From positions 1 through 33,466 of the forward strand of contig JAHILF010000104.1 of assembly GCA_018897105.1 (NCBI GenBank): a stretch of 33,466 nt of DNA, written 5' to 3'. The DNA comes from Pseudomonadota bacterium. GTDB lineage: Bacteria > Desulfobacterota > Desulfobulbia > Desulfobulbales > SURF-16. This document shows positions 3,067 to 16,500 of the stretch, in pieces. Position numbers and translations under genes: made by a program. The notes beneath the pieces are model-generated. The model was not told where the DNA came from. It was given only the letters and a program-made list of their open reading frames with translations, and made no database searches. Position 1 is the first letter of the stretch. Each line of letters opens with the position of its first letter.

Positions 3067-3178
3067 GGGCAGGAATTTTAAAGTCGGCTTTGCCAACTAC
3101 GGTGTTCCCGTAAATTTTTTTCAAAAAGACCATGCCGTACCATGGTAAAATAGCAGAAGTAGTTGCTCACCTGCAAAA

Positions 3179-4288
3179 TCACCTCTGCTGCTGGCTGCCC
3201 AGCCAGTAAGGATCGGCTACTGCCTGCCGGTAGGCCGACAGGGCCTCCGGAGAAGAGTTGACCCTTAAGTTGGAATGCGTTTCATCTTTATTTTGCCAGC
3301 GTTCATGCCAGTAAACCGCGGCCTTTACCCGCGGATACTTCTTTTTGTAAGCGGTAAAAGCCTGTGCAAACCAGGCAGCCTTATCACCTGCTTTCGGGAA
3401 CTCCCCGACCCCCCACTCGGCAACGATAAGCGGTTTGGCGGTATCAAGTAGACAGAGTTCCTTGTAACCGTTGTCCATGGCCTGTTCAAACGAAATCCAC
3501 CGGCTATCGGGAAAGAGCTTGCCGTAAACGCTCAGAGCCAGAATGTCTACCATATCAGACCCGGGATAATACTGACTCAGGGCGTTCCACTTGGTGGCTG
3601 GAACCGAAAAGTTGTTGGCATGGAATACCCAGAGGATCTTACCGGCACCACGTGCTCTTACCCGTTCTACCACATAACGATAAGTCTGTTTGAAAAGTTC
3701 CGGTCCGGCATATCTGGCGGGTTGGTCCGGGGCGGAGACGGGCTGTCCTCCTCCGTAATGCACGCCGGACCAAGGAAACCATTGACCGTTCATCTCCAGG
3801 CCCAAGGATACCAGCAGCGGTTTATCGATGGCGCGTGCCTCATCAGCCCATTTATCGATATATTTGTCCCACTTGCCGGCCAGAATGTTATTCAGACTGA
3901 AACGGTCAGGCGGTCTCCCTTCCTCATAAGGCAGGTCCCAGGGTGACCAGAAGATCAGCGGAATGGAACCATGGCGAATAATGAGTCCCATATTTTTTTT
4001 CGGGAATTTCTGTTCCCCCCAATAACTTGAGGAGGCAATGATGGCCTGGTGTTTACCGACCATGGTTTCGAATTTTTCAATGGCCTCGAGCGTCACATCA
4101 TCTTCGTAATCCCCGAAGTCGATGTAGGCCCCGGTAAAAGCGCCGGTAGCGGGAAAATCAACGGTGATGCTTTCCCTGGCGCCCGTTTTGCCGGATGGGG
4201 TGGCGGGTTCCTGATTGTCGCAACCGGCCAACAGAACCAGCAAAGACAACAGCAAAGCGGCCGGCAGTTTTAAAGGGGGAAAAAGCAT
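3179..4288 (-). CDS. Glycoside hydrolase family 26-like lipoprotein
   Basis: This is a 369-residue protein with a lipoprotein signal: a hydrophobic run followed by the lipobox LLAGC, with lipidated Cys23. Asp follows the cysteine, which by the E. coli rule could mean inner-membrane retention. The catalytic region resembles clan GH-A, GH26 enzymes. LGLEMNGQWFPWSG supplies the acid/base Glu165, and KPLIVAEWGVGEFP supplies the nucleophile Glu291. Family members cut beta-mannan or mixed beta-glucans, and relatives occur in exopolysaccharide loci. The gene lies 67 bases downstream of the deacetylase/synthase gene on the same strand with no terminator seen between, so it probably acts on that polymer at the membrane or in the periplasm. 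The ribosome binding site (GGTGAT) is weak. Substrate unknown. Confidence 0.75.
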   Translation of the reverse strand: MLFPPLKLPAALLLSLLVLLAGCDNQEPATPSGKTGARESITVDFPATGAFTGAYIDFGDYEDDVTLEAIEKFETMVGKHQAIIASSSYWGEQKFPKKNMGLIIRHGSIPLIFWSPWDLPYEEGRPPDRFSLNNILAGKWDKYIDKWADEARAIDKPLLVSLGLEMNGQWFPWSGVHYGGGQPVSAPDQPARYAGPELFKQTYRYVVERVRARGAGKILWVFHANNFSVPATKWNALSQYYPGSDMVDILALSVYGKLFPDSRWISFEQAMDNGYKELCLLDTAKPLIVAEWGVGEFPKAGDKAAWFAQAFTAYKKKYPRVKAAVYWHERWQNKDETHSNLRVNSSPEALSAYRQAVADPYWLGSQQQR

Positions 4289-4355: not shown

Positions 4356-7300
4356 TTAGTTTTTAAGAGTAATAGAGGCGGACCTTTCCAGCTTGCCCCA
4401 GCCGACCAGGGCACCTTTGACGGCCCTGCTAATTGATTTCCATACCACCCAGGCCAGCAGTGGACGGTAAAGAAAACGCATGGGCAGGATGCGCCAGGCT
4501 GCCTTGAGAGACTCTCCCTCCATCCAGCACGCCAATGCCGCCAGTAACAGGTCCATGGCAAGAAAAGCAACTAAGTACAGTAAAATGGCGATTTGCATGC
4601 CAAAAAACAGGGAAAACAGCAGCAGACCGTCGACCAGTGGGCTGACGGCCACCAGTAGTATCTGAAAAAGCCATATGGAAGGCAGACTGAACCAGCCAAG
4701 TGCTCTGTGTCTCGGGTTGCCGACCAGATCGCGGTGTTTCCAAAGACACTGCAGGGTGCCGAAAGCCCAGCGAAAACGTTGTTTGGCCAAGGCGGAGAAG
4801 TTTTCCGGCGCCTCTGTCCACGCCACGGCTCGTGGTGCATAGGCGATCCGGTAACCGGCGCGATGCAGGCTCAGCGTCAGGTCCGTATCTTCAGCCAGGG
4901 TGTCGCTGCTGATCCCGCCGGCGGCCATAACGGCAGAGCGGCGCCAGGCGCTTACCGCACCCGGCACCACCGTGATACAGTTAAGCTGCTGGTATGCCCG
5001 TCTGTCAAGATTAAACCCGCAGGTATATTCCAGATCCTGGAAACGGGCGACAAGGGTCTGTTTGTTGCCGACCTTGACATGCCCTGATACGGCCCCGATG
5101 CGTTCATCACGCATTGGCTGTACCAGATGGATGATGGTATCGGGCTGGAAAATCGTATCAGCGTCGAGAGTCACAATGATCTCATGGGCCGCGGTATGGA
5201 ATCCGGCACGGAGGGCGCGGGCCTTACCCAGGTTCTTGTCCTGAGAAAGCAGCGTGATGCGGTTATCTTCAGCTGCGATTTTCGCTACCGCCGATGCTGT
5301 CCGGTCAGTGGAGCCATCATCGACCACGATGATATCCATTGTGCCGGCATAGTCTGTACGTAGAAGGTTTTCCAGAGTGCGAGCGACCACCTTTTCTTCA
5401 TTATAGGCGGCAATGACAATACTGATCGGCGGCTGGAAGTCATCGGGCGCGGCAGTCGGGGGAGAGAGGTGGCGATGCCTGTGGCTCTGGGCAAGGATTG
5501 CCACGAACAGGGTGCGCAGGGTAATCAGAATGGTGGCCACGATCATGAAGGCCCAGCCAAGTTCTCCGACTGCATGCATGATCTTAAAGCCGCTGTCACC
5601 GATCAGTCGCTGAAGCGGCTGATGATTTTCCGGTAACGGCGGCATGAGTGATGAGGCGGATGCACCCAGCAGCCGGCCGAGGGAAACCACTTGATCGCCG
5701 CGGGCCTCAAGATAATCGATGATCAACGGCAGGGCGGCGACGGTCTGGTGGCGGTTGCCGCCGGCATCGTGCAGCAGAATGACATTGCCCTGGAGTCGCT
5801 GCTCCTTTACCCGTTGGACAATGGCATCCACTCCGGGCTGTGACCAGTCTTCAGGGTCAATATCGCTGGACACCGTGAGATAGCCAAGCCCCTGGGCAAT
5901 TTTTATCGGCACCAGTTCCTCCGGAGCATGGGGCTCGGAATCGGCGTTGTATGGCGGCCGGAAAAGAAAAGTTGAGCGGCGGGTGATCGTTTCAATGAGA
6001 CGCCGGGTGGCATTAAGTTCCAGTCGGGCCCGTTCAGCGGAAACCTCGGCCAGATTCGGATGAGTGTATGTATGCACGCCGATCTCATGCCCTTCCCTGA
6101 CGATTCTCTCGACAATCTCAGGATTTCTCTCCATCCGCTCACCCACCATGAAAAAGGATGCCGTGACGCCTCTGGACTTGAGGATATCGAGCACAGCCGG
6201 GGTCCATTTGGAGTCGGGACCGTCATCAAAGGAGATCGCTACCTCATCGGGTTGTCCATTGCCCTGGTGGTTGATAGTGGTGTAGGAGGGGAAAACCCGG
6301 TAAGTGTGGGTGAGTTTTCCGCCGGTATCCTCTGCTATCTCCCGGTAACCGTTGGCGTGATTGTCCTCTATCATCAGAAAGTTTCCGCTGCCCAACTGGG
6401 CCACAGCATCCTGCGGAACAAGGGGACGGAGGAAGTCCAGCGCGGCGGACGGTAGAGGAGCGGTACGAGCCAGGGGCAGGACCTGCCAGACGGCAGGATC
6501 TTCGGTTCCCAGACGCGAGAGGGCAATACCACCGGCATGCAGCCCACGGGCGGAACAGATCTGGTTAAAAAACGTCACACCATCCAGGAACCAGACCGTG
6601 TGCTCTGTCTCTCCATCCATATAGGAGAAGCGAGGATTGTCCGCGGGCTGCCGGGAACGGCAGTCATGCAGACCGGCCCGGCCGGCCCGGGTCAGGACAT
6701 CGGCAAAGCCGATGGTATGCGCCTCTTTTTGTCCCTGTGCCCAGTCGTATCCGTAGGCGCCGATGCCCACCACCCATTGCGCAGGTTTGCCGTAAGCAAG
6801 AAGGGTCTGCAGCCAGCCGTCAAACCAAGGCTGGGAGGCGATGGGACCGGGAGGATCGACTTCTGAATTTTCATCATGCAGCACAGCTACAAAACGATCG
6901 ACAACAGGGGAGAGGTTTTCAAGGTCAAAGGCTTTCAGTTCAAGCCCCACGGGGATACACAGCCAGAGCTCCATTTTCTGCTGGTGGAGGGCATCAGCCA
7001 GACGGGAGAGCAGGAGAGTAAGAGACTGTTGATAAGCGGGGTCCATCTGGTTCCAGTCAATGAGCACCCCCCCGGCCTCCGCCTCCATGAGATGGTCAAG
7101 CAAGCGGGCGATAAATCGATCCTGTCGGGCCTGCGGGCCATTGATCAGACCTTCGACGGCTTCTGGTTGCCAGGTGTCACCGACAAGGTTGCGCAGGAGC
7201 GGCAATACGATAATATTTTTTTCTCTGGCCACATCCAGCACCCGCCGGTCTGGTTTCACCTGCAGGGTTCCTTCACCATCGATAAGTGTCATCCATTCCG

Positions 7301-7736
7301 GGCTGATATGGGTCAGTTGCCCGGCATGCGCCACGAGCGAATCATAACTGTCCGGATCCCAGCTGACGTAGAAGCCAAGATGCACCTCGGGGACTGCGCT
7401 ATCCATTTCAGGTGGGGCAGGGATCTTGGTCGTTGCGGAGGCTGGCGAAAGCCCTTTGGTTTTGGTGAAACGCAGCCAGAGCGGCGCAGGTGCAGCAGGA
7501 GAAGTGAGATTGTCCTGAGGCTTCATGCCGCTACGTAAATGAGCCCGGAGTTGCTGTACAGCCTCAGGCAACTGCAACTTGGGCGTTATGATGAGATATC
7601 TGACAAAAACCACACTCCCCAGGAAAAAAAGCGAACCGGCGATCAGCAGCGCAAGTCGCAGACGCGGCCAACGTTTGCCTTTCACATCTCGGAAAATAAA
7701 TAACGAATCATTAAGGTCAGCCATGGAGCGTTCCAT
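4356..7736 (-). CDS. Trimodular GH18-like / CE4 deacetylase / GT2 membrane polysaccharide synthase
   Basis: This 1126-residue protein has three enzyme modules in one chain. After a cytoplasmic basic start and TM about 28-50 comes a GH18-like barrel (about 116-420). Its catalytic motif is degenerate: in GGVLIDWNQ the expected acid Glu is Asn229. Next is a NodB-type deacetylase with all five motifs: SFDDGPD (502-508), HTYTHP (555-560), RPPYN (593-597), DIDPEDW (625-631) and ILLHDAGG (653-660). TM about 726-750 leads back to the cytoplasm and a processive GT2 domain with VVDDGST (804-810), LDADT (857-861), AEDTD (948-952) and QRFRW (986-990), then several TM helices. The topology places the synthase inside and the deacetylase and GH18-like domain in the periplasm, as expected for making and trimming a GlcNAc-type polymer. 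It heads a two-gene unit with the GH26-like lipoprotein. An alternative start at M5 (7724) is possible. Confidence 0.88.
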   Translation of the reverse strand: MERSMADLNDSLFIFRDVKGKRWPRLRLALLIAGSLFFLGSVVFVRYLIITPKLQLPEAVQQLRAHLRSGMKPQDNLTSPAAPAPLWLRFTKTKGLSPASATTKIPAPPEMDSAVPEVHLGFYVSWDPDSYDSLVAHAGQLTHISPEWMTLIDGEGTLQVKPDRRVLDVAREKNIIVLPLLRNLVGDTWQPEAVEGLINGPQARQDRFIARLLDHLMEAEAGGVLIDWNQMDPAYQQSLTLLLSRLADALHQQKMELWLCIPVGLELKAFDLENLSPVVDRFVAVLHDENSEVDPPGPIASQPWFDGWLQTLLAYGKPAQWVVGIGAYGYDWAQGQKEAHTIGFADVLTRAGRAGLHDCRSRQPADNPRFSYMDGETEHTVWFLDGVTFFNQICSARGLHAGGIALSRLGTEDPAVWQVLPLARTAPLPSAALDFLRPLVPQDAVAQLGSGNFLMIEDNHANGYREIAEDTGGKLTHTYRVFPSYTTINHQGNGQPDEVAISFDDGPDSKWTPAVLDILKSRGVTASFFMVGERMERNPEIVERIVREGHEIGVHTYTHPNLAEVSAERARLELNATRRLIETITRRSTFLFRPPYNADSEPHAPEELVPIKIAQGLGYLTVSSDIDPEDWSQPGVDAIVQRVKEQRLQGNVILLHDAGGNRHQTVAALPLIIDYLEARGDQVVSLGRLLGASASSLMPPLPENHQPLQRLIGDSGFKIMHAVGELGWAFMIVATILITLRTLFVAILAQSHRHRHLSPPTAAPDDFQPPISIVIAAYNEEKVVARTLENLLRTDYAGTMDIIVVDDGSTDRTASAVAKIAAEDNRITLLSQDKNLGKARALRAGFHTAAHEIIVTLDADTIFQPDTIIHLVQPMRDERIGAVSGHVKVGNKQTLVARFQDLEYTCGFNLDRRAYQQLNCITVVPGAVSAWRRSAVMAAGGISSDTLAEDTDLTLSLHRAGYRIAYAPRAVAWTEAPENFSALAKQRFRWAFGTLQCLWKHRDLVGNPRHRALGWFSLPSIWLFQILLVAVSPLVDGLLLFSLFFGMQIAILLYLVAFLAMDLLLAALACWMEGESLKAAWRILPMRFLYRPLLAWVVWKSISRAVKGALVGWGKLERSASITLKN

Positions 7737-8132
7737 ATACTGTTGTGTAAACGGGGGTATACCCTTGTTTATCTTTTGGGATACGGATCGGTGTTTTTTG
7801 AGGGATTCAGAAGCCGGTTTAACCAGGCAAAGGGATGCTTCCGGGCTGCATCGTCAGTAAATAGAATAGCCATAATTTAATAATTTGAGATATCTACCAC
7901 GGAAGAAAAGAGGATACAAGGGCGATTTGATGGACCCTGGCAACACCAGTTACTGGCAGCCGGTTGCACAATAAAAAAAACGCGCAGCCGATGCTGCGCG
8001 TTTTTGATGAAAATATTACTATCTTATCTCAAGGGCCGTTGCGAAATAACCATTACCTCTCTAAACCATTTCGTGACGGCCCTCTATACCATTCACAGTT
8101 TTGCCATGTATCAGATATTTTTTTACACCGGC
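7737..8132. other. Intergenic region between the polysaccharide and symporter units
   Basis: About 400 bases without a credible gene on either strand. It should hold the promoter and 5' leader of the deacetylase/synthase gene (reading leftward from about 7900) and the 3' end of the symporter transcript. Apart from the strong hairpin at 7973-8005 no defined element stands out. No clear sigma-70 promoter could be picked. Confidence 0.4.
7973..8005 (-). terminator. Intrinsic terminator of the symporter transcript (possibly bidirectional)
   Basis: A perfect 8-bp GC-rich stem (CGCGCAGC, 7981-7988, pairing with 7993-8000) has a 4-base loop, flanked by eight A on the left and five T on the right. 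Read on the minus strand it gives a hairpin followed by eight U, 128 bases after the symporter stop codon. Confidence 0.88.
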
Positions 8133-9908
8133 TTAGTGATCAATACTGGCGCCGGCTCCCCTGGGGAAACGGATGTTTTCCACCATCTCCTGCACGTCAG
8201 CTGGCGGAGGAGCGGTGATAAAGGAAACAAGCAGCGTCACGATAAAATTGATGAGCATACCCACGGTACCGATTCCTTCAGCACTGATGCCGAGCAGCCA
8301 GGGGGTGCCGCCCAGGAACTTGATATTGACAATGTAGTAACAGGTGAAGGAAATGCCGGCAATCATACCGCAGATTGCCCCTTCGCGATTCGCCCTTTTG
8401 AAGAAAATGCCAAGAACGATAATCGGGAAGAACGATGAAGCGGCAAGGCCGAAGGCAAAGGCCACAACCTGTGCCACAAAGCCCGGAGGATGAATCCCGA
8501 AATATCCGGCCACACACACAGCCAGTCCTATCATGATGCGGCCAACCATTAACCGCTGTTTTTCAGAGGCGTTGCGGTTGATGAGGCGGTAGTAGAGATC
8601 ATGCGAGATGGATGAAGAAATTACCAGCAGCAGACCGGAAGCGGTTGAAAGGGCAGCGGCAAGACCACCGGCGGCAACGAGGGCAATAACCCAGGGAGGA
8701 AGATTGGCGATTTCCGGGTTTGCCAGAACCATGATGTCACGGTCAATGAAAAGCTCATTCTTGTTGTCGGTGGGGCTGTTTGAAAGAAGTTCCTGGCCGT
8801 AGGAGCCTTTTTCACCGGTGAATGTGGGTTTGCCGGTAAAGGGATCGCCTGGGAAATATTCAATAATACCGTCCTGGTTTTTATCAGACCAGGCGATAAG
8901 ACCTGTTTTTTCCCAGTTTTTAAACCAGGTAGGGGCTTTCGAATATTCAACGCCGCTGATGGAGTTAATCATGTTGTAGCGGGCAAAGGAAGCGATTGCC
9001 GGTGCGGTGGTATAGAGAATGGCGATAAAAAGCAGAGCGTAACCGGCGCTGAGGCGGGCAGCGCGAACACTGGGAACCGTGTAGAAGCGGACGATGACGT
9101 GGGGCAGGCCTGCCGTACCAACCATCAGCGCCATGGTGATGCAGAAAACGTCCAGCATGGACTTGCTGCCCTGACCGAAGGCCTTGGTATATTCCGCAAA
9201 TCCCAGGTCAGCGTTTAAGTGGTTGAGAACATCCAGCAGATATTTGCCGGCATTCGGTCCTTCAGCAATGGTAGAACCGAAGCCGAGCTGCGGCAGGAAA
9301 GTTCCGGTGATTTTTAATGAAATAGCAATAGCCGGGACCAGATAGGCCACAATAAGCACCAGGTACTGAGCCACCTGGGTATAGGTGATACCCTTCATGC
9401 CACCCAGTGAGGCGTAGAAGAAAACGATGGCCATACCGATGAGGACCCCGGTGTTGACGTCCACTTCAAGAAAACGGCTGAAGACGATGCCAACGCCGCG
9501 CATCTGGCCGGCAACATAGGTAAATGACACAAAGATGGCGCAGATAAGGGCGACAAAACGGGCAATATCTGAATAATAGCGGTCACCGACAAAGTCCGGA
9601 ACGGTGAATTTGCCGAATTTCCGCAGATAGGGTGCCAGGAGCAGGGCCAGAAGCACATAGCCGCCGGTCCAGCCGAGCAGATAAATTGAACCCGTATAGC
9701 CCATGAATGAGATCAGACCGGCCATGGAAATGAAAGAGGCGGCACTCATCCAGTCAGCAGCTGTAGCCATGCCGTTGGCGAGAGGGGAAACACCGCCACC
9801 GGCAACATAAAATCCACTGGTTGTTTTAACCCTCGCAATCCAAGCTATACTTAGATAAAGGCTGAAGGTGATTCCAACCATTATGTAAGTCCATGTCAGA
9901 ATTGACAT
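8133..9908 (-). CDS. Sodium/solute symporter large subunit (acetate permease-like, VC_2705 type)
   Basis: This 591-residue polytopic membrane protein belongs to the solute:sodium symporter family. The N-terminal FYVAGGGVSPLANGMATAADW and the later GGLAAALSTASGLLLVISSS (about 414-433) are typical of ActP-like members; the Ser/Thr residues of the latter line the second sodium site in the fold. Between membrane helices there is a long hydrophilic loop (about 312-405) containing DKNQDGIIEY (342-351), which resembles a calcium-binding EF-hand loop. Such proteins import acetate or other short carboxylates with sodium. The start has an excellent AAGGAGA site. Its small partner subunit lies upstream on the same strand, but 260 bases away, longer than the near-adjacent spacing expected for subunits. 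The exact substrate is not known. Confidence 0.87.
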   Translation of the reverse strand: MSILTWTYIMVGITFSLYLSIAWIARVKTTSGFYVAGGGVSPLANGMATAADWMSAASFISMAGLISFMGYTGSIYLLGWTGGYVLLALLLAPYLRKFGKFTVPDFVGDRYYSDIARFVALICAIFVSFTYVAGQMRGVGIVFSRFLEVDVNTGVLIGMAIVFFYASLGGMKGITYTQVAQYLVLIVAYLVPAIAISLKITGTFLPQLGFGSTIAEGPNAGKYLLDVLNHLNADLGFAEYTKAFGQGSKSMLDVFCITMALMVGTAGLPHVIVRFYTVPSVRAARLSAGYALLFIAILYTTAPAIASFARYNMINSISGVEYSKAPTWFKNWEKTGLIAWSDKNQDGIIEYFPGDPFTGKPTFTGEKGSYGQELLSNSPTDNKNELFIDRDIMVLANPEIANLPPWVIALVAAGGLAAALSTASGLLLVISSSISHDLYYRLINRNASEKQRLMVGRIMIGLAVCVAGYFGIHPPGFVAQVVAFAFGLAASSFFPIIVLGIFFKRANREGAICGMIAGISFTCYYIVNIKFLGGTPWLLGISAEGIGTVGMLINFIVTLLVSFITAPPPADVQEMVENIRFPRGAGASIDH

Positions 9909-10169
9909 TATTTTTTCTCCTTATGAATTTGTCTTTAATGTTCAGTATGAATGTTTTTTGGACGGACCTGTAATGCAATCTTAAACACCGTAATCATCGG
10001 AGTTTCCCCCGTTTTGTGAGTTTTTCCTGAATAACGAATCGTATTTTTTGCGGACGATCCGACGGTGTTCAAAATTAATGCGATTTATTGCTGTTTGCGA
10101 AAGTGACTGGAGCCTTTACGAACTCGTACAGGTTGATTTGTCCTGATATTCTGGACTCAATTGAAACCT

Positions 10170-10421
10170 TTATTCGTGAACGTCATACTCTTCGTCAACT
10201 TTCTTCATGATAAAATAGTAAATAAAGATAAGGACCACAAAGATATAGATGGCGCCTTGCTGAGCAAACCAGAAGCCAAGCGGAAAGCCGGCGATTTTAA
10301 TGGCATTCAACTGTTCGACAAATATGATACCGAATCCATAGGAGACAATTGCCCAGATTGAAAGCAGGACAACCATTAGTGAAAGATTTTTTTTCCAGTA
10401 CATTTTCAAATCTTTTTTCAT
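10170..10421 (-). CDS. Sodium/solute symporter small subunit (DUF4212 family)
   Basis: This small membrane protein of 83 residues has two hydrophobic helices (about 13-35 and 48-68). It opens with YWKKNLSLMVVLLSIWA and has the GFPLGFWFAQQG signature between the helices, which matches the DUF4212 small subunit that accompanies VC_2705-type sodium symporters. It probably stabilises or regulates the large subunit encoded next on the same strand. The ribosome binding site GGAGGGG precedes the chosen ATG; another ATG four bases upstream is out of frame. The 260-base spacer to the large-subunit gene shows no recognisable gene or terminator. Confidence 0.88.
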   Translation of the reverse strand: MKKDLKMYWKKNLSLMVVLLSIWAIVSYGFGIIFVEQLNAIKIAGFPLGFWFAQQGAIYIFVVLIFIYYFIMKKVDEEYDVHE

Positions 10422-10807
10422 TCATTCCCCTCCGTTGTAATTTGTTTATGTACAATTGTGAATCTGTAAGATGATAAGCCCAGGAAAACAGAAAGTCCCA
10501 ATTCGCTCTGTTTGCACAATGTTCAATTTCATATAGGAAATCAATAAAATAACTCCCCAATAGACACAAATTGCGGTGATACGAGCTTTTAAGGAAAAAA
10601 TCAATAGGTAGATTTACTGGTTTAGATTCGTCTGAAAATGAAACAATCTGAAAAATTCATGTGTGTAGTAATACTTAGATGAAAATACAAACAGAGAGCG
10701 GAGGGATTTTTTTTCTGTTGCGGCAGATTTATTCAAGAAGAAAGTGTAAGAAATTGTGATTTGGTGAAATTCCAACCAAGGACAAGAATGAGTAGGAGGC
10801 AGTGGTC
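10422..10807. other. Intergenic region between the symporter unit and recO
   Basis: About 390 AT-rich bases with no gene I can support on either strand. It should hold the 3' end of the recO transcript and the promoter of the small symporter subunit. I could not identify a clear terminator hairpin or a promoter with good -35 and -10 boxes. Confidence 0.4.
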
Positions 10808-11563
10808 TCATTTGGCCAGGTTGAATTGTTTCCAGGAATGGATTTCACGCTGCAGCTGAAAATTACCATAAAATTTGAGAACCTTTGCCGCTTCAGCAAG
10901 TGATTTCCCGGAGATTTTAAGACGGTTCAGTCTGGTCAGCGGCAGGGATCTGGCCATCTGCATGCTTTTGATAGCTGGCATTGATAATGGGATCAGCCCG
11001 ATTTCATTCGTCCGGCAGCAACGCGAACAGATAATGCCGCTTTGCGCCGGGCTGAAATAAAAGGGAAGGGTAGTCTGTTCCATTTCTCCGCAAACAAGAC
11101 AATGTTCCAGCATAAGACCCATGCCAAGGATGTCGAGCATCTTGATTTGAAAAAAAATGACGGTTTCAGCAATGTTGTCTCTGTCTGAAAGCTCATGCAG
11201 ACACCAGCAAAGCAGTTGGAAAAGCGACTCGTCGCTGTCATTTTCCCTGGTCCACTGGTCCATTAATTCGCAGACAAGCATGGCGGCGGTGTAACGGTGA
11301 TAGTTCTCACGTAATGGCGGGAAGGGGTTGACCAGGCTGGCATTGTCGATTCGGCCCATACTGGAAAGACGGCCGGGAACAATGGTGATATCCAGCAGGG
11401 AAAAGAATTCAAGTTTGTTGACAAACCGTTTTTTGCTTCGTTTGGCCCCTTTAGCAATGGCCTTCAGTTTGCCGAAATGTCGGGTATAAAATATGACAAT
11501 TTTATCTGATTCGCCATAGTCCATGACCTTCAGGACTATGGCGCGGGACTGGAGAAAAGACAT
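10808..11563 (-). CDS. recO: DNA repair protein RecO
   Basis: RecO (251 residues, normal length) loads RecA onto SSB-coated single-stranded DNA with RecR during recombinational repair. The N-terminal OB-fold is recognisable (AIVLKVMDYGESDKIVIFYT, GKLKAIAKGAKRSKKR). The central helical domain follows, with a zinc-binding cluster CLVCGE...CSRCC formed by four cysteines around residues 158-182. Its ATG overlaps the stop codon of the preceding HTH gene by one base (TAATG), so translation is probably coupled. It is the last gene of the long minus-strand run. Confidence 0.93.
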   Translation of the reverse strand: MSFLQSRAIVLKVMDYGESDKIVIFYTRHFGKLKAIAKGAKRSKKRFVNKLEFFSLLDITIVPGRLSSMGRIDNASLVNPFPPLRENYHRYTAAMLVCELMDQWTRENDSDESLFQLLCWCLHELSDRDNIAETVIFFQIKMLDILGMGLMLEHCLVCGEMEQTTLPFYFSPAQSGIICSRCCRTNEIGLIPLSMPAIKSMQMARSLPLTRLNRLKISGKSLAEAAKVLKFYGNFQLQREIHSWKQFNLAK

Positions 11564-12345
11564 TATTGGGCAGGAGGCGTTGCCTCCTGACTGTCAAAAC
11601 TGTTGGGTGGAGAGTTGGCCGTGGAGGGGGTTCCGGCAGAAGGAGACACTGCCTGTGGCAGGGGTTGATCATTGTTATTATTCAAGGAAGTGGTTGCCTG
11701 GTTTTGACTGTCGGTATTATCCATGGGAGGGTTGCCTGCTGAGGGAGAGGTTGCCGAAGAGTAAGTATTCCCTGTGGCGGATGGAGAAGTATAATGGTTT
11801 TGCACGGGGGTCTGCACCGTATCAAATTTTTCATTGATCTGTGATGAAAGAGACCCGTTTCCCGACCCCTGGAAAAAAGATGAACGGCGGGGTGTCGGCG
11901 ATTCTGAGTAGAGAAAGAAATAGTAGCCAAGGGCAAAGAGCGCAAGCAGAATGAGCAGAATGAAAATTTTACGCAGGCTTAAAAAAGATGTAGATTCAGC
12001 CAGTTTTTCATTGTAGAAAACATCATGATTTCTGATGTTTTCCTCGTCGGACTGCCCCATTTCGCGATCATAAAGTTCGAGTACTTCCTGTTGGTCAATT
12101 CCGAGGAATTTTGCATACAGCTTGATAAATCCCCTGGAAAATACCTCTGCCGGCATTTTACTGCGGTCATTGCTTTCTATTGCCCGCAGTGTCCCAATGT
12201 TGATACAGGTCTGTTCCGCAACCTGCTCCAGGCTGAATTGTTTTTTTATCCGTTCACGCTGCAGATAACTGCCCAGGGATGGTCCTGTATCGTTGTCGGT
12301 CGAGTCGTTGATTTTTGACCGGTTATGCTGGGAATCTTGTGCCAT
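11563..12345 (-). CDS. RodZ-like membrane-anchored helix-turn-helix protein
   Basis: This 260-residue protein has an N-terminal XRE-type helix-turn-helix (about 24-92: LGSYLQRERIKKQFSLEQVA, then INIGTLRAIESND and FSRGFIKLYAKFLGI), which is the RodZ/YfgA form. A single TM helix follows (about 124-146). The outer part is about 110 residues rich in Ser, Thr, Asn, Gln and Pro and looks disordered. RodZ proteins bridge MreB to the cell-elongation machinery. This one lacks a visible C-terminal beta domain (DUF4115), so the extracytoplasmic part is either reduced or diverged. AAGGA lies upstream of the start with a somewhat long spacing. Its stop overlaps the recO start. The cell-shape role is an inference from domain order. 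Confidence 0.78.
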   Translation of the reverse strand: MAQDSQHNRSKINDSTDNDTGPSLGSYLQRERIKKQFSLEQVAEQTCINIGTLRAIESNDRSKMPAEVFSRGFIKLYAKFLGIDQQEVLELYDREMGQSDEENIRNHDVFYNEKLAESTSFLSLRKIFILLILLALFALGYYFFLYSESPTPRRSSFFQGSGNGSLSSQINEKFDTVQTPVQNHYTSPSATGNTYSSATSPSAGNPPMDNTDSQNQATTSLNNNNDQPLPQAVSPSAGTPSTANSPPNSFDSQEATPPAQ

Positions 12346-12417
12346 TTGGCTTCAGTCCTTTTGCAGGAATAATGAGTTTTTCCGAGGTCATTATCCCATC
12401 CGAATGAAAGTGAGAGA

Positions 12418-13434
12418 TCAAAGGAGTTCCTTTACATAAGAATTTTCACGTAATTCCTTGACCCAGTATTCAAATTTTTTCTTTAGTTCCTGGTCGTAAA
12501 GAGTTGTCCTGATTTCTTCCTTTACATTTTCCAGAGGGGCTTGGGCAATAACACCGTCGCTGCTTTTTGACAGGAGTTTAAAGAACTGAAATCCCGCAGG
12601 AGTTTCGATGATGGGGCTTACTTCTCCGGGATGCAGGTCTTTAATAGCCTGCCACATGTAGTCAGCCAGTTCATTTTTCTTAAAAGTGCCTATGTCGCCG
12701 CCATCAACTCCGGAAGGCAGGTCTGAATAATTTTTAGCTATTTCATTGAAATTCTCACCAGCTATGACCATTTCCCGCAACTGCTCCGCACGTTTGAGGG
12801 CCTCTTCTTTGGAAGCGGAACGCCCCTTATCCTCCCAGCCGCTGCCAAACTGCAGGATGTGATAGCCTTCCGGAGAATTGTGCTGCATGTACTTATTGCG
12901 GTAGTATGCCTCGACCTGCTCATTGGTGATTACCACCTTTGACCGGATTTCGTAACTGAGCAGTCTTGAGCGGAGAATCTGATCGCGCAGTGAGGTGCGA
13001 TATTTTTCCTCTGTTACACCCATGGTCGCAAGCTGTTCCCGGAACTGTTCCACGGTAAGGTTGTTCTGTTCCATTATCCGGTCGATGGCTGCGTCGATGT
13101 CCGCATCGGCAACCTCAATCTGTAGTTTGGCGGCACGTTGGAGAAGCAGTTTGTGATCAATCATATTGCGCAGGATATCCTGGCGCGCTTTCTGGATGGC
13201 ATCATCAACCTGGGCGGGAGGAGCTTCCGCTCTGATTTTTGCAATGGTCGACGTAGCTTCTTCTTCAAGCTCGGAAAGGGTGATGACATCATCGTTTACC
13301 ACGGCAACAACCCGGTCAACAAGTTCTCCGGCAAGGGTCACAGAGCAGAGAAAGAGTTTGACGATCAGGAAAAGAAATAAAGCGGTTAAACGGGCTTTAC
13401 TGAATGATATGGGGGAATTTATCGTTTTAAACAT
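12418..13434 (-). CDS. surA: Periplasmic chaperone/peptidyl-prolyl isomerase SurA
   Basis: SurA-type proteins carry unfolded outer-membrane proteins across the periplasm to the Bam complex. This one has 338 residues from ATG 13434, which yields a signal-peptide-like hydrophobic segment (LTALFLFLIVKLFLCSVTLA). A longer frame uses an upstream TTG without support. The SurA N-terminal chaperone domain is clear (LVDRVVAVVNDDVITLSELE, ILRNMIDHKLLLQRA). One parvulin PPIC domain follows (FNEIAKNYSDLPSGVDGGDI through TPAGFQFFKLL) and then a C-terminal helix. E. coli SurA has two parvulin domains; only one is seen here, as in many non-enteric forms. Its place between mfd and the HTH gene, in one run with bamA, fits outer-membrane biogenesis. 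The Shine-Dalgarno is weak. Confidence 0.87.
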   Translation of the reverse strand: MFKTINSPISFSKARLTALFLFLIVKLFLCSVTLAGELVDRVVAVVNDDVITLSELEEEATSTIAKIRAEAPPAQVDDAIQKARQDILRNMIDHKLLLQRAAKLQIEVADADIDAAIDRIMEQNNLTVEQFREQLATMGVTEEKYRTSLRDQILRSRLLSYEIRSKVVITNEQVEAYYRNKYMQHNSPEGYHILQFGSGWEDKGRSASKEEALKRAEQLREMVIAGENFNEIAKNYSDLPSGVDGGDIGTFKKNELADYMWQAIKDLHPGEVSPIIETPAGFQFFKLLSKSSDGVIAQAPLENVKEEIRTTLYDQELKKKFEYWVKELRENSYVKELL

Positions 13435-13515
13435 GCGAAAACCAAGATGAATACAGTATGTTTCCGCCAACACGCGGATTTGGTAGCTCAACGTTAAGGT
13501 TTAGTATTTACGATA

Positions 13516-16500
13516 CTAAGCGAGGGCCTGCAATACTTTTTTAATTTCATTAAAAAGAGAATCATTACTTTCTATCTGCGACGGGACAACGAGCTTTCCA
13601 TCAGGGGTAAAACGCATCTTGTTCTTGCTTTTGCTCACCAGTGCAAGAATATTTTCCGGCTTCACCGGTGTCTGGTTGAGAAATGTAAAAACCAACCCGC
13701 CTGCTCCCCGTTCAAGTTTGCAGATTTTCAATTCCCGCAGGAAAAATTTGATGCTGATAACCCGCAGCAAGTTGATGGTTTCCTCCGGGATTTCTCCATA
13801 CCGATCACGCAGCTCATCCTGCAGATCCTCAAGTTCAAGCTCATCCCTGATGCTGGTGATTTTCCGATAGGCGATATATCTCTGATCACTTTCAGATATA
13901 TAGTGATCAGGAATAAAGGCGGAGATTCCCAGATTAATCTCCGGTTCCACCTCAGGCTCTCCAAGGGCGAGCTCACCGTCTTTTCCTCTTCTTTTCAGAT
14001 CTTCAACCGTCTTCTGCAGCAGATCAAGGTAGAGATCATAGCCAACGGCCACAATATTGCCGCTCTGGGATTTGCCGAGAATGCTTCCGCCTCCTCTGAT
14101 CTGCAGATCGCTCATGGCTAGTTTAAAGCCGCCTCCCAGTTCATTGTAATCCATCAGGGCACGCAGTCTCTGTCTGGCATCCTTGGACAATCCGTCCAGG
14201 GAGGGGACCAGCAGATAGGCATAAGCCTGTTCGCTGCTGCGTCCCACTCTTCCACGCAGTTGGTATATTTCAGCCAGACCGAAGCGGTCGGCGCGGGTGA
14301 TAATAATGGTGTTAGCATTAGAGATATCAAGGCCTGATTCAATAATCGTGGTGCAGACCAGGACATCCACCTCATTTTTGACAAAACGGACCATAATATC
14401 TTCAAGCTGCTTGCCCGGCATCTGGCCATGGGCCACGGCAATTTTTGCTTGCGGCACGAGCTTCTGCACGCGGTGGGCCATTTCGTGGATGGACTGCACG
14501 CGATTGTGGACAATAAAAACCTGTCCCTTGCGCTGCAGTTCCTTGATGACAGCCTCCTTGATAACCAGATCGTCATGTTTGGCAACAAAGGTCTTCACTG
14601 CCCGCCGCTGACTGGGCGGGGAACTGATAACGGAGAGATCCCTGATGCCGAGCAAGGAGAGTTGCAGGGTGCGCGGAATGGGGGTGGCGGTCAGGGTAAG
14701 CACATCCACATTGCTTTTGAGTTTTTTGATCCTTTCCTTATGGGCCACCCCAAAGCGGTGTTCTTCGTCGATGATGAGCAGGCCGATCCGTTTGAATACG
14801 ACATCTTTTGACAGAATGCGGTGGGTGCCGATTACCATGTCTGCCTTGCCGTCTGCCAGATCCTTGATGACCTGTTTCTGTTCCTTGTCGCTGCGGAAGC
14901 GGTTCAGACACTCAACCTGGAGCGGAAAGCCGGCGAAACGCTCCCTGAAGGACTCAAGGTGCTGTTCGGCAAGTACGGTGGTGGGTACAAGCATGGCCAC
15001 CTGAAAACCATCCTCAATAACCTTGAAAGCGGCACGAACCGCCACCTCGGTCTTGCCGTAGCCGACATCGCCGCAGACCAGTCTGTCCATTGACTGTTCG
15101 GAGGAGAGGTCCGTGATGACATCATTAATCGCCTTGAGCTGGCCTGATGTTTCTTCATAGGGGAAGGTTTCTTCCAGTTCGTTAAATAACGGGTCAGGCT
15201 GGCTAAAGGCATGTCCGGTTGCCAGTTTGCGTCTGGCATAGATATCGAGGAGTTCCTGGGCCACTTTCCAGACCGCTTCCGTCACTTTCTGTTTGGCTTT
15301 TATCCAGAGTTTGCCGCCGAGTTTGTTGACTTTCGGCTCTTTATCCGAAATTCCCTGGTACTTGCTGATGGTGCTTAAACGATCAACCGGTACGTAGAGT
15401 TTATCATTGCCTTCATAGGTGATCTGCAGAAAATCGTTGGCCACCCCGTTTAACGACATGTTAATGATACCGTTAAAAACACCGATGCCGTGATCGACAT
15501 GCACTACAAAATCTTCGGGGCGCAGTTCTTCAAAACGGATATTTTCAACAGGGCTGGCATGTTTTTTTCTTTTTCTGGAGCCAAGTCGTTTTTCGCCGAA
15601 GAGTTCATTTTCTGAGAGCACATGCAGACTTTCCAGCGGCAGATCGAAACCTGCACTTAAAGGAGAGGTGACCAGTGTCACATATGCTGCGTCAGTATGC
15701 TCAAGCCTCAGGGGTGCTTGCTGTTGTCGTAATTCAATGTCGTAATGGGAAAGCATTTCAGCCAGATGGAGAGCATGTCTTTCCGTCCGGCAGGCCAGGG
15801 CGACCTTGTCATGGTTTTGCTGCCATTCTCTGATCTGCTTAACCAGCGGGGCGATAAAACCTTCCTTTTTACGGGACAGCTCCAGTTGCTGCTTGAGCAG
15901 GAGATGGTTGCCGGTTTGAATGGAGAGAGTCTTTTCCTGGTCAGGTTGCGGGGAGGCAAAATCGTGCAGAAATACCTGGCTGAAAAGATGCAGGGATTTC
16001 TCCAGTTCTGTTTCCGGCAGAAAAAGGGATTCAGGTGGGAGTGCCGGGTTATTGACACTGCAGGCCTCCTGATAATTTTTGGTAATTCTTTCCCAGATCA
16101 GCTGGATGGATTGGGAAGATTCCTGAGGAGCGTAAGAAAAGGCAATGGTATTTTTCGGAAGAATATCCGTGGGGGCGGAGAGTTTTCCATAAAAGAGGGG
16201 AAGGAAAAACTCGATGCCGGGAAAAGGTGTACGGGTTTTGATCTTTTCTGCGATGGCATTTTTCTGCAGATAATTCCAGTTTCGCTCTTTACCTTCCCGG
16301 TCAAATGCTGCCAGTAGCTGTTGGTAATCAGCGCTAGTAGGATCAGGGAAAAGTGTGTCGCTGACCGGCAGAAAAATCATCTCCTTAACTTCTTTGAGTG
16401 ATCGTTGGGTTATCGGGTCAAAATAGCGGATCGATTCAACCGTTTCTCCGAAAAAATCAAGCCTGACAGGTGCGTCAATGGCTGAATCATCTTCGGCAAA

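Follow-up and report, generated by a model that had tools for sequence, protein, structure and literature searches.

PgaB and PgaC act on one polymer, with a deacetylase and a hydrolase-fold domain outside the cell and a family 2 glycosyltransferase (GT2) inside; they are separate proteins, and the hydrolase domain of PgaB, which is active, belongs to GH153 and not to GH18 (PMC5933820). In MatB, which Streptomyces lividans and S. coelicolor need for the poly-N-acetylglucosamine (PNAG) that is detected by monoclonal antibody F598 and removed by dispersin B, a membrane helix connects an extracellular CE4 deacetylase with a PgaC-like GT2 in the cytoplasm; in the relevant sections of these papers MatB has two domains and a partner, MatA, and no GH18 or GH26 is mentioned (PMC5972031, PMC4391728). 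A chain with the module order GH18-CE4-GT2 was tabulated in 2012 for Acetivibrio cellulolyticus (ZP_09465738), the source being a table entry (PMC3413522). Here we describe a protein of this kind, encoded at 4356..7736 of a 33,466-nucleotide contig (JAHILF010000104.1, assembly GCA_018897105.1) from a bacterium of the Desulfobacterota; the whole of this stretch is called the window.

Our reading of the locus, to which we give a probability of about 0.5, is that the synthase and the GH26 gene directly downstream form a two-gene module that would make a partly deacetylated polymer of the N-acetylglucosamine (GlcNAc) type, with the GH18 domain acting as a non-catalytic handler of the chain and cutting moved to the GH26 enzyme. 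The features of the two genes are as follows.

4356..7736, minus strand: GH18(pseudo)-CE4-GT2 trimodular polysaccharide synthase, 1126 residues, ATG start (open reading frame (ORF), Pfam, AlphaFold model)
7590..7673, minus strand: first membrane helix, residues 22-49, with the predicted cytoplasmic-side basic stretch KGKRWPRLR (model helix, hydropathy)
6417..7394, minus strand: GH18-fold domain, residues 115-440, D227 kept, E229 changed to N, MxYD Tyr287 changed to H (Pfam, alignments including a pairwise one with YdhD, structure match)
5637..6416, minus strand: CE4 (NodB-type) deacetylase domain, residues 441-700 (Pfam, structure-sequence matches, alignment)
5469..5618, minus strand: second membrane helix, model helix 707-756, hydrophobic core about 719-751 (model, hydropathy)
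4722..5444, minus strand: GT2 catalytic domain, residues 765-1005 (Pfam, NCBIfam, alignment, structure match)
4416..4715, minus strand: C-terminal membrane helices 1008-1044, 1048-1073 and 1077-1107, the last from the model alone (model, hydropathy)
3179..4288, minus strand: GH26-like protein, 369 residues, lipobox LAGC ending at Cys23, with E165 and E291 (Pfam PF02156, alignments, nearest structure Lic26A)

The fusion protein and its predicted topology

The GH18-CE4-GT2 fusion is confirmed as real: it is not a chance ORF, because relatives over its full length, at 36-84% identity, span many phyla. The AlphaFold model, built from an alignment of 42 sequences that includes the window protein, has a mean predicted local distance difference test score (pLDDT) of 87 and a predicted template modelling score (pTM) of 0.67. 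The genome holds no second copy of the protein, the remaining matches covering only parts of it; four more CE4 loci lie elsewhere in the genome.

The CE4 module scores 110.6 bits with PF01522 against a cut-off of 23.1 (E 6.3e-32). Residues D504, D505, H555, H559, R593, P595, D627, D630, W631, H656 and D657 are invariant in all 42 aligned sequences, and lie in what we take to be the metal-binding and catalytic motifs TFDDGP, HxxxH, RxPY, DxxDW and LLHD; score and motif residues together identify a CE4 polysaccharide deacetylase. The best named models are PdaB, PgdA (peptidoglycan GlcNAc) and NodB (chitooligosaccharide), and the matches among solved structures include the peptidoglycan GlcNAc deacetylase Bc1960. 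NodB and NodC, which were matched in the plasmid search and have a CE4 and a GT2 of the same broad kinds, are separate proteins that make short oligomers, with no GH18 domain.

The GT2 module is recognised by PF13641 with 130.7 bits (E 1.1e-37), far above the cut-off. D807, D858, D860, E949, D950, Q986, R989 and W990 are invariant (42/42) and D806 is kept in at least 90% of the sequences; these positions presumably represent the catalytic Asp residues and the ED and QxxRW motifs, and with the C-terminal helices they mark a processive synthase. Residues 726-1126 of the model match hyaluronan synthase among solved structures (VIA Z about 33). PgaC/IcaA (TIGR03937) is the top NCBIfam synthase model and matches 42 of the 42 family members at 1e-5; its score on the window protein, 202.5 bits, is below the equivalog cut-off of 422.3, which makes the PNAG synthases the nearest named family only. 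Because the nearest models are PgaC/IcaA for GT2 and PdaB, PgdA and NodB for CE4, and because of the likeness to MatB, we infer a polymer of the GlcNAc type.

Hydropathy peaks back the first four model helices (22-49, 707-756, 1008-1044 and 1048-1073) and not the fifth (1077-1107). Around the first helix, 15-residue flanks contain four basic residues before it and two after it, which fits the topology; the count around helix 707-756 is about even, with no clear lean. With helix 22-49 following a basic stretch and helix 707-756 preceding GT2, the GH18 and CE4 modules are predicted on the outer side of the membrane and GT2 on the cytoplasmic side. The predicted layout, with CE4 outside and GT2 inside on a single chain, is that of MatB.

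An earlier sequence-only reading of this stretch had proposed three modules in one 1126-residue chain, each on its proper side of the membrane, with intact CE4 and GT2 motifs and a GlcNAc-type product. The modules, the motifs and, as a prediction, the topology are borne out, and the product is probable: PF01522 and GT2 exceed their cut-offs, the GH18 fold is present in the model, the key CE4 and GT2 residues are invariant, PgaC/IcaA is the nearest named synthase, and model helices, hydropathy and the basic-residue count at the first helix place GH18 and CE4 outside and not on the cytoplasmic side. The domain search that it called for fell short in one respect, the Pfam score for GH18 (see below).

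The same reading supposed that such fusions occur in other genomes and might be known, and this is correct. Full-length relatives occur in 6 of 198 and, in a larger sample, 16 of 395 genomes of the phylum, the window's own genome counted. There are plasmid-borne relatives in Deinococcus, Novosphingobium, Sphingobium, Sphingomonas and Prevotella. Species genomes were scanned as well, yielding at least 580 stretches that encode some relative; the best 80, which were kept, include Verrucomicrobiota, delta-type bacteria, Acidobacteriota, Bacillota, a cyanobacterium, Alpha- and Gammaproteobacteria and a gemmatimonad. Relatives of the fusion are therefore found in at least seven phyla. We rejected the idea of a novel architecture, since the fusion is widespread and was already in print as the table entry cited above (PMC3413522).

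Altered GH18 residues in the GH26 clade

On the window protein PF00704 scores 23.2 bits, under its gathering score of 29.6. The model nevertheless contains a GH18 barrel: GH18 chitinases and SleL align with residues 116-426 over a length of about 300 (VIA Z 35.1 for the Chromobacterium chitinase 5jh8 and 34.5 for SleL). Further structural matches, with Z of about 30, are the GH18-fold proteins SPC-40, BRP39, AgBR1 and SI-CLP, which are animal proteins outside any synthase. Chitinase-like proteins of this fold are binding proteins, several of which are without the catalytic Glu.

In a pairwise alignment with YdhD, the window protein has IDWNQ where YdhD has IDFEQ, and LHDE where YdhD has AYDW. 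The position of the acid Glu is thus Asn229 and that of the MxYD Tyr is His287, and Asp227 is retained; positions 227, 229 and 287 are taken here to be the GH18 catalytic residues. The sequence-only reading had treated GH18 as the hydrolase of the machine, and had overlooked both these changes and the GH26 gene directly downstream at 3179-4288. Because acid Glu and MxYD Tyr are both replaced, we do not count GH18 as that hydrolase.

The loss is concentrated in one clade. To keep GH18 from influencing the branching, a quick likelihood tree was computed for 86 family members, including the window protein, from the stretch between CE4 and GT2 (both included), residues 480-1010. The rows come from 91 loci (L001 and L009-L098), after omission of two duplicates (L050 of L012, L047 of L013) and of the truncated L057, L052 and L055. 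The GH26 bearers fall in one group of 43 rows, with a Shimodaira-Hasegawa-like approximate likelihood ratio test (SH-aLRT) value of 98, and GH26 presence needs two changes on the tree. The Asp-Glu-Tyr set is intact in 42 of the 43 rows outside this clade and in 4 of the 43 inside it, and also in none of 10 further genomes of the phylum. D-x-E is lost in 23/43 clade rows against 1/43 outside rows. It changes in ten steps on the tree, nine of them in the GH26 clade (binomial p 0.002; branch length 13.06 inside the clade and 18.62 outside, 31.68 in total). Among the 55 loci with at least 3.5 kb of downstream sequence, the motif is lost in 10 of 21 with GH26 and in 2 of 34 without.

Ten relatives were scored with PF00704 on 480-residue stretches: outside the clade five of five pass, at 60.9-98.5 bits, and inside it four of five pass, at 32.9-47.9 bits, L019 giving no match. 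The altered GH18 domain is under purifying selection at a level like that of CE4. Ratios of non-synonymous to synonymous substitution (dN/dS) between the window protein and L019, L115 and L117 are 0.17, 0.19 and 0.24 for GH18, 0.15, 0.17 and 0.24 for CE4, and 0.14, 0.12 and 0.14 for GT2, the ratios of the two more distant pairs being rough, since dS exceeds 1 there.

A retained domain could of course still be an enzyme. GH18 might work as PgaB does, via Asp227 alone, with GH26 merely providing a second cut. The hydrolase domain of PgaB cuts deacetylated PNAG with an Asp (D474) that aligns with the GH18/GH20 Asp, and does so with no Glu partner (PMC5933820); Asp227 is kept in the window and in at least 90% of the 42 aligned members, so the missing Glu is no proof of inactivity, which counts against our reading. 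However, the Asp itself is changed in several clade members, to Asn in L023, L037, L041 and L042 and to Glu in L051, L121 and L122. The MxYD Tyr and Trp407 are also mostly gone in the clade, whereas every outside row except L018 (42 rows) retains Asp, Glu and Tyr, and also Trp407 where it is readable. We therefore consider a PgaB-like hydrolase unlikely.

Two side observations concern this domain. Columns H143, Y235, W258, W308 and W321 are near-fixed in the GH26 clade and nearly absent outside it, and to judge from the alignment they possibly reflect altered packing or a binding surface that is new. The only outside row with an altered GH18 motif (DxS, and F for Y) is L018, from a Limimaricola plasmid; it is a shorter, divergent relative of 931 residues as annotated (8256-11051), followed by a DUF3131 protein (11297-13786).

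The GH26 partner and the gene neighbourhood

The downstream protein scores 48 bits with PF02156 against a cut-off of 20.2. Its nearest solved structure is Clostridium thermocellum Lic26A, the GH26 domain of CelH, at 27-28% identity, and E165 and E291 align with what we take to be the catalytic Glu residues of Lic26A; score and Glu pair make it a GH26 protein. The pair is retained in every readable GH26 ORF (47/47 and 46/46) of a set of 48, two duplicates among them. In a crude scan with unpolished starts, a lipobox-like pattern was found in only 21 of the 48, so that the lipoprotein label is firm for the window GH26 only. GH26 enzymes are mannan, xylan and glucan hydrolases, and Lic26A itself differs from the window protein in being a mixed-linkage glucanase that is cellulosomal and unlinked to a synthase.

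A search with a profile made from five GH26 neighbours located GH26 close to the synthase, without exception on its strand, in loci of delta-type bacteria, Verrucomicrobiota and Candidatus Contendobacter. In 35 of the 43 clade rows, GH26 is on the same strand and adjoins the synthase or lies within about 2.3 kb downstream. In the other eight genomes, a close GH26 is found on another stretch in six, a weak one in one (L031) and none in one (L077). In several of these the synthase contig stops a short way 3' of the gene (at 61 to 1908 bases for L023, L031, L038, L025, L030 and L024; at 3232 for L077), so GH26 is surely apart only in L028, where 7 kb follow the synthase. Outside the clade, none of the 34 genomes searched gave a GH26 match at 1e-20; the nine of the 43 rows left out were the plasmid loci L014-L018 and L063, L065, L090 and L092, and the same query as a positive control gave matches in 5/6 and 6/6 genomes.

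Within the phylum the two genes go together. In the sample of 198 genomes, the six genomes with a synthase give the six top GH26 matches; a seventh, with no synthase match, has a weaker GH26 (1.4e-75), and nine more have distant ones. In the sample of 395, a close GH26 occurs in 16 of 16 synthase genomes, beside the synthase in 14 and on another contig in two. These counts bear on the suggestion that GH26 works in nutrient uptake or on some other glycan, and that only shared history places it beside the synthase. The nearest solved GH26 enzymes do hydrolyse plant polysaccharides, and in some Verrucomicrobiota the synthase and GH26 are apart or have about 2 kb between them. The pair is nevertheless together in Desulfobacterota, Verrucomicrobiota, other delta-type metagenome-assembled genomes (MAGs) and Candidatus Contendobacter, and with the phylum counts this makes the suggestion very improbable.

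Further arrangements were seen. L020 has a tandem pair of GH26 genes after the synthase (10435-12919). In L124 and L125 (G352 C361:1996-5338) two ORFs make up the synthase, one for GH18-CE4 (826 residues) and one for GT2 (381 residues); their matches are ten bases apart, through a natural split or a frameshift, and GH26 comes next. In Sinorhizobium pSymB (L099, 5305-8763) GH26 is part of an operon of the order SDR-GalE-GT2-DUF995-GH26-DUF995, which fits the arabinose-polysaccharide operon named in PMC7902896. An Actinoplanes Wzx/Wzy cluster also carries GH26, its authors knowing of no characterised Wzx/Wzy cluster with such an enzyme (PMC13390465). GH26 in polysaccharide-making clusters therefore has precedents, the sugars there being other or not known.

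In the window the GH26 gene begins 67 bases past the synthase stop, and the gene beyond it encodes a chemotaxis receptor in convergent orientation. Two hairpins flank the pair.

7976..8005, minus strand: intrinsic-terminator-like hairpin with a 13-pair stem, between the unit and the upstream symporter gene (terminator scan, sequence)
3129..3146, minus strand: weak hairpin of terminator type, past the end of the GH26 gene (same scan, not above chance level)

The terminator scan of the region gave seven sites, where 5.5 are expected by chance. Given the upstream hairpin and the convergent next gene, the unit appears to hold two genes, synthase and then GH26, which are probably co-transcribed.

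Neighbouring ORFs of at least 110 residues were clustered, and the 25 largest of the clusters present in at least five loci were compared. GH26 is the only one that holds strand and place across phyla, and no other conserved neighbour among the 25 has its reach. A glycerate-kinase-like cluster (identified by eye) lies upstream in 14 loci, of which 12 are in the clade and one is in Bacillota. Two generic clusters (signalling-type and ABC-transporter-type, by eye) occur in nine loci each across groups, in scattered places and on mixed strands, and most of the remaining clusters are concentrated in Verrucomicrobiota MAGs. In eight alphaproteobacterial loci (L015, L017, L086, L087 and L090-L093) the synthase has a TonB-dependent-receptor-like gene in its vicinity, for the most part on its own strand.

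A proposed division of labour

We propose that GT2 would polymerise a GlcNAc-type sugar in the cytoplasm and extrude the chain via its own membrane helices, and that CE4, held outside on the same chain, would deacetylate the polymer as it emerges. The GH18 fold, which has a full catalytic set in other lineages, would here be a non-catalytic holder or guide of the chain, and cutting would be handed to the GH26 lipoprotein of the adjacent gene. One chemical reason for such a swap can be offered. Catalysis by GH18 needs the N-acetyl group of the attacked sugar, and GH26 uses its own nucleophile; because GH26 needs no N-acetyl group, chains already deacetylated by CE4 could still be cut by it. More tentatively, and with the odds against so specific a history, it is possible that GH18 became a conserved non-catalytic holder throughout this multi-phylum clade after GH26 had joined, and that GH26 acts on a de-N-acetylated amino-sugar polymer that GH18 could not cut.

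Several points weigh against the two-gene module as we read it. D-x-E is still present in 20 of the 43 clade rows. An independent-pairs test of GH26 presence against motif loss is not significant, since the tree holds just two changes in GH26. With about one gain of GH26, a single clade carries the association, as one event and then many losses. The tree is a quick one without bootstraps, and the best 80 loci are those that score highest against the query, so that the sample leans to the window's clade. No outer-membrane exporter gene lies inside the two-gene unit. The Pga system has the exporter PgaA, an outer-membrane tetratricopeptide repeat (TPR) porin; in the window's genome the PgaA model TIGR03939 gives 33 matches, none above the cut-off, by which the locus does not belong to that system; among 14 control genomes the model gave matches in 12, one of them above the cut-off. 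We know of no GH26 enzyme that acts on an amino-sugar chain.

The polymer might also be a different one. The clade might make an O-acetylated beta-glucan or a mannan-type chain, with CE4 as an O-deacetylase and GH26 as the matching glucanase, and the change of sugar would then explain the loss of GH18. The nearest GH26 structure, being a mixed-linkage glucanase, weighs on this side and against our reading, as does 7fbw, titled an acetylxylan esterase, which is one of the two top CE4 sequence matches. Twelve columns separate clade from outside sharply, and three of them are in GT2 (H886, A897 and S929) and two in CE4 (H490 and D681). On the other hand, clade and outside rows share the key residues of GT2 and CE4, no synthase model scores higher than PgaC/IcaA, and the best CE4 models include PgdA and NodB. 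We consider a glucan or mannan unlikely, and we retain the partly deacetylated GlcNAc-type polymer as our preferred product.

Among open-licence PMC texts, we recognised neither a functional study of any GH18-CE4-GT2 protein nor a description of its link to GH26. Within that literature, and as far as our searches go, what is new is the pairing of lost GH18 catalytic residues with a newly arrived GH26 across several phyla.

A hydrolase of debated role is often part of a synthase-dependent exopolysaccharide system. Related lineages of this one family seem to differ in their hydrolase, and the role of cutting could therefore be tested by comparing them. If it is true that GH26 cuts a glucosamine-containing chain, this would widen the substrates of GH26 and provide a new tool against biofilm polymers. 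A GH18 domain that is retained in altered form would separate the holding of the chain from its cutting.

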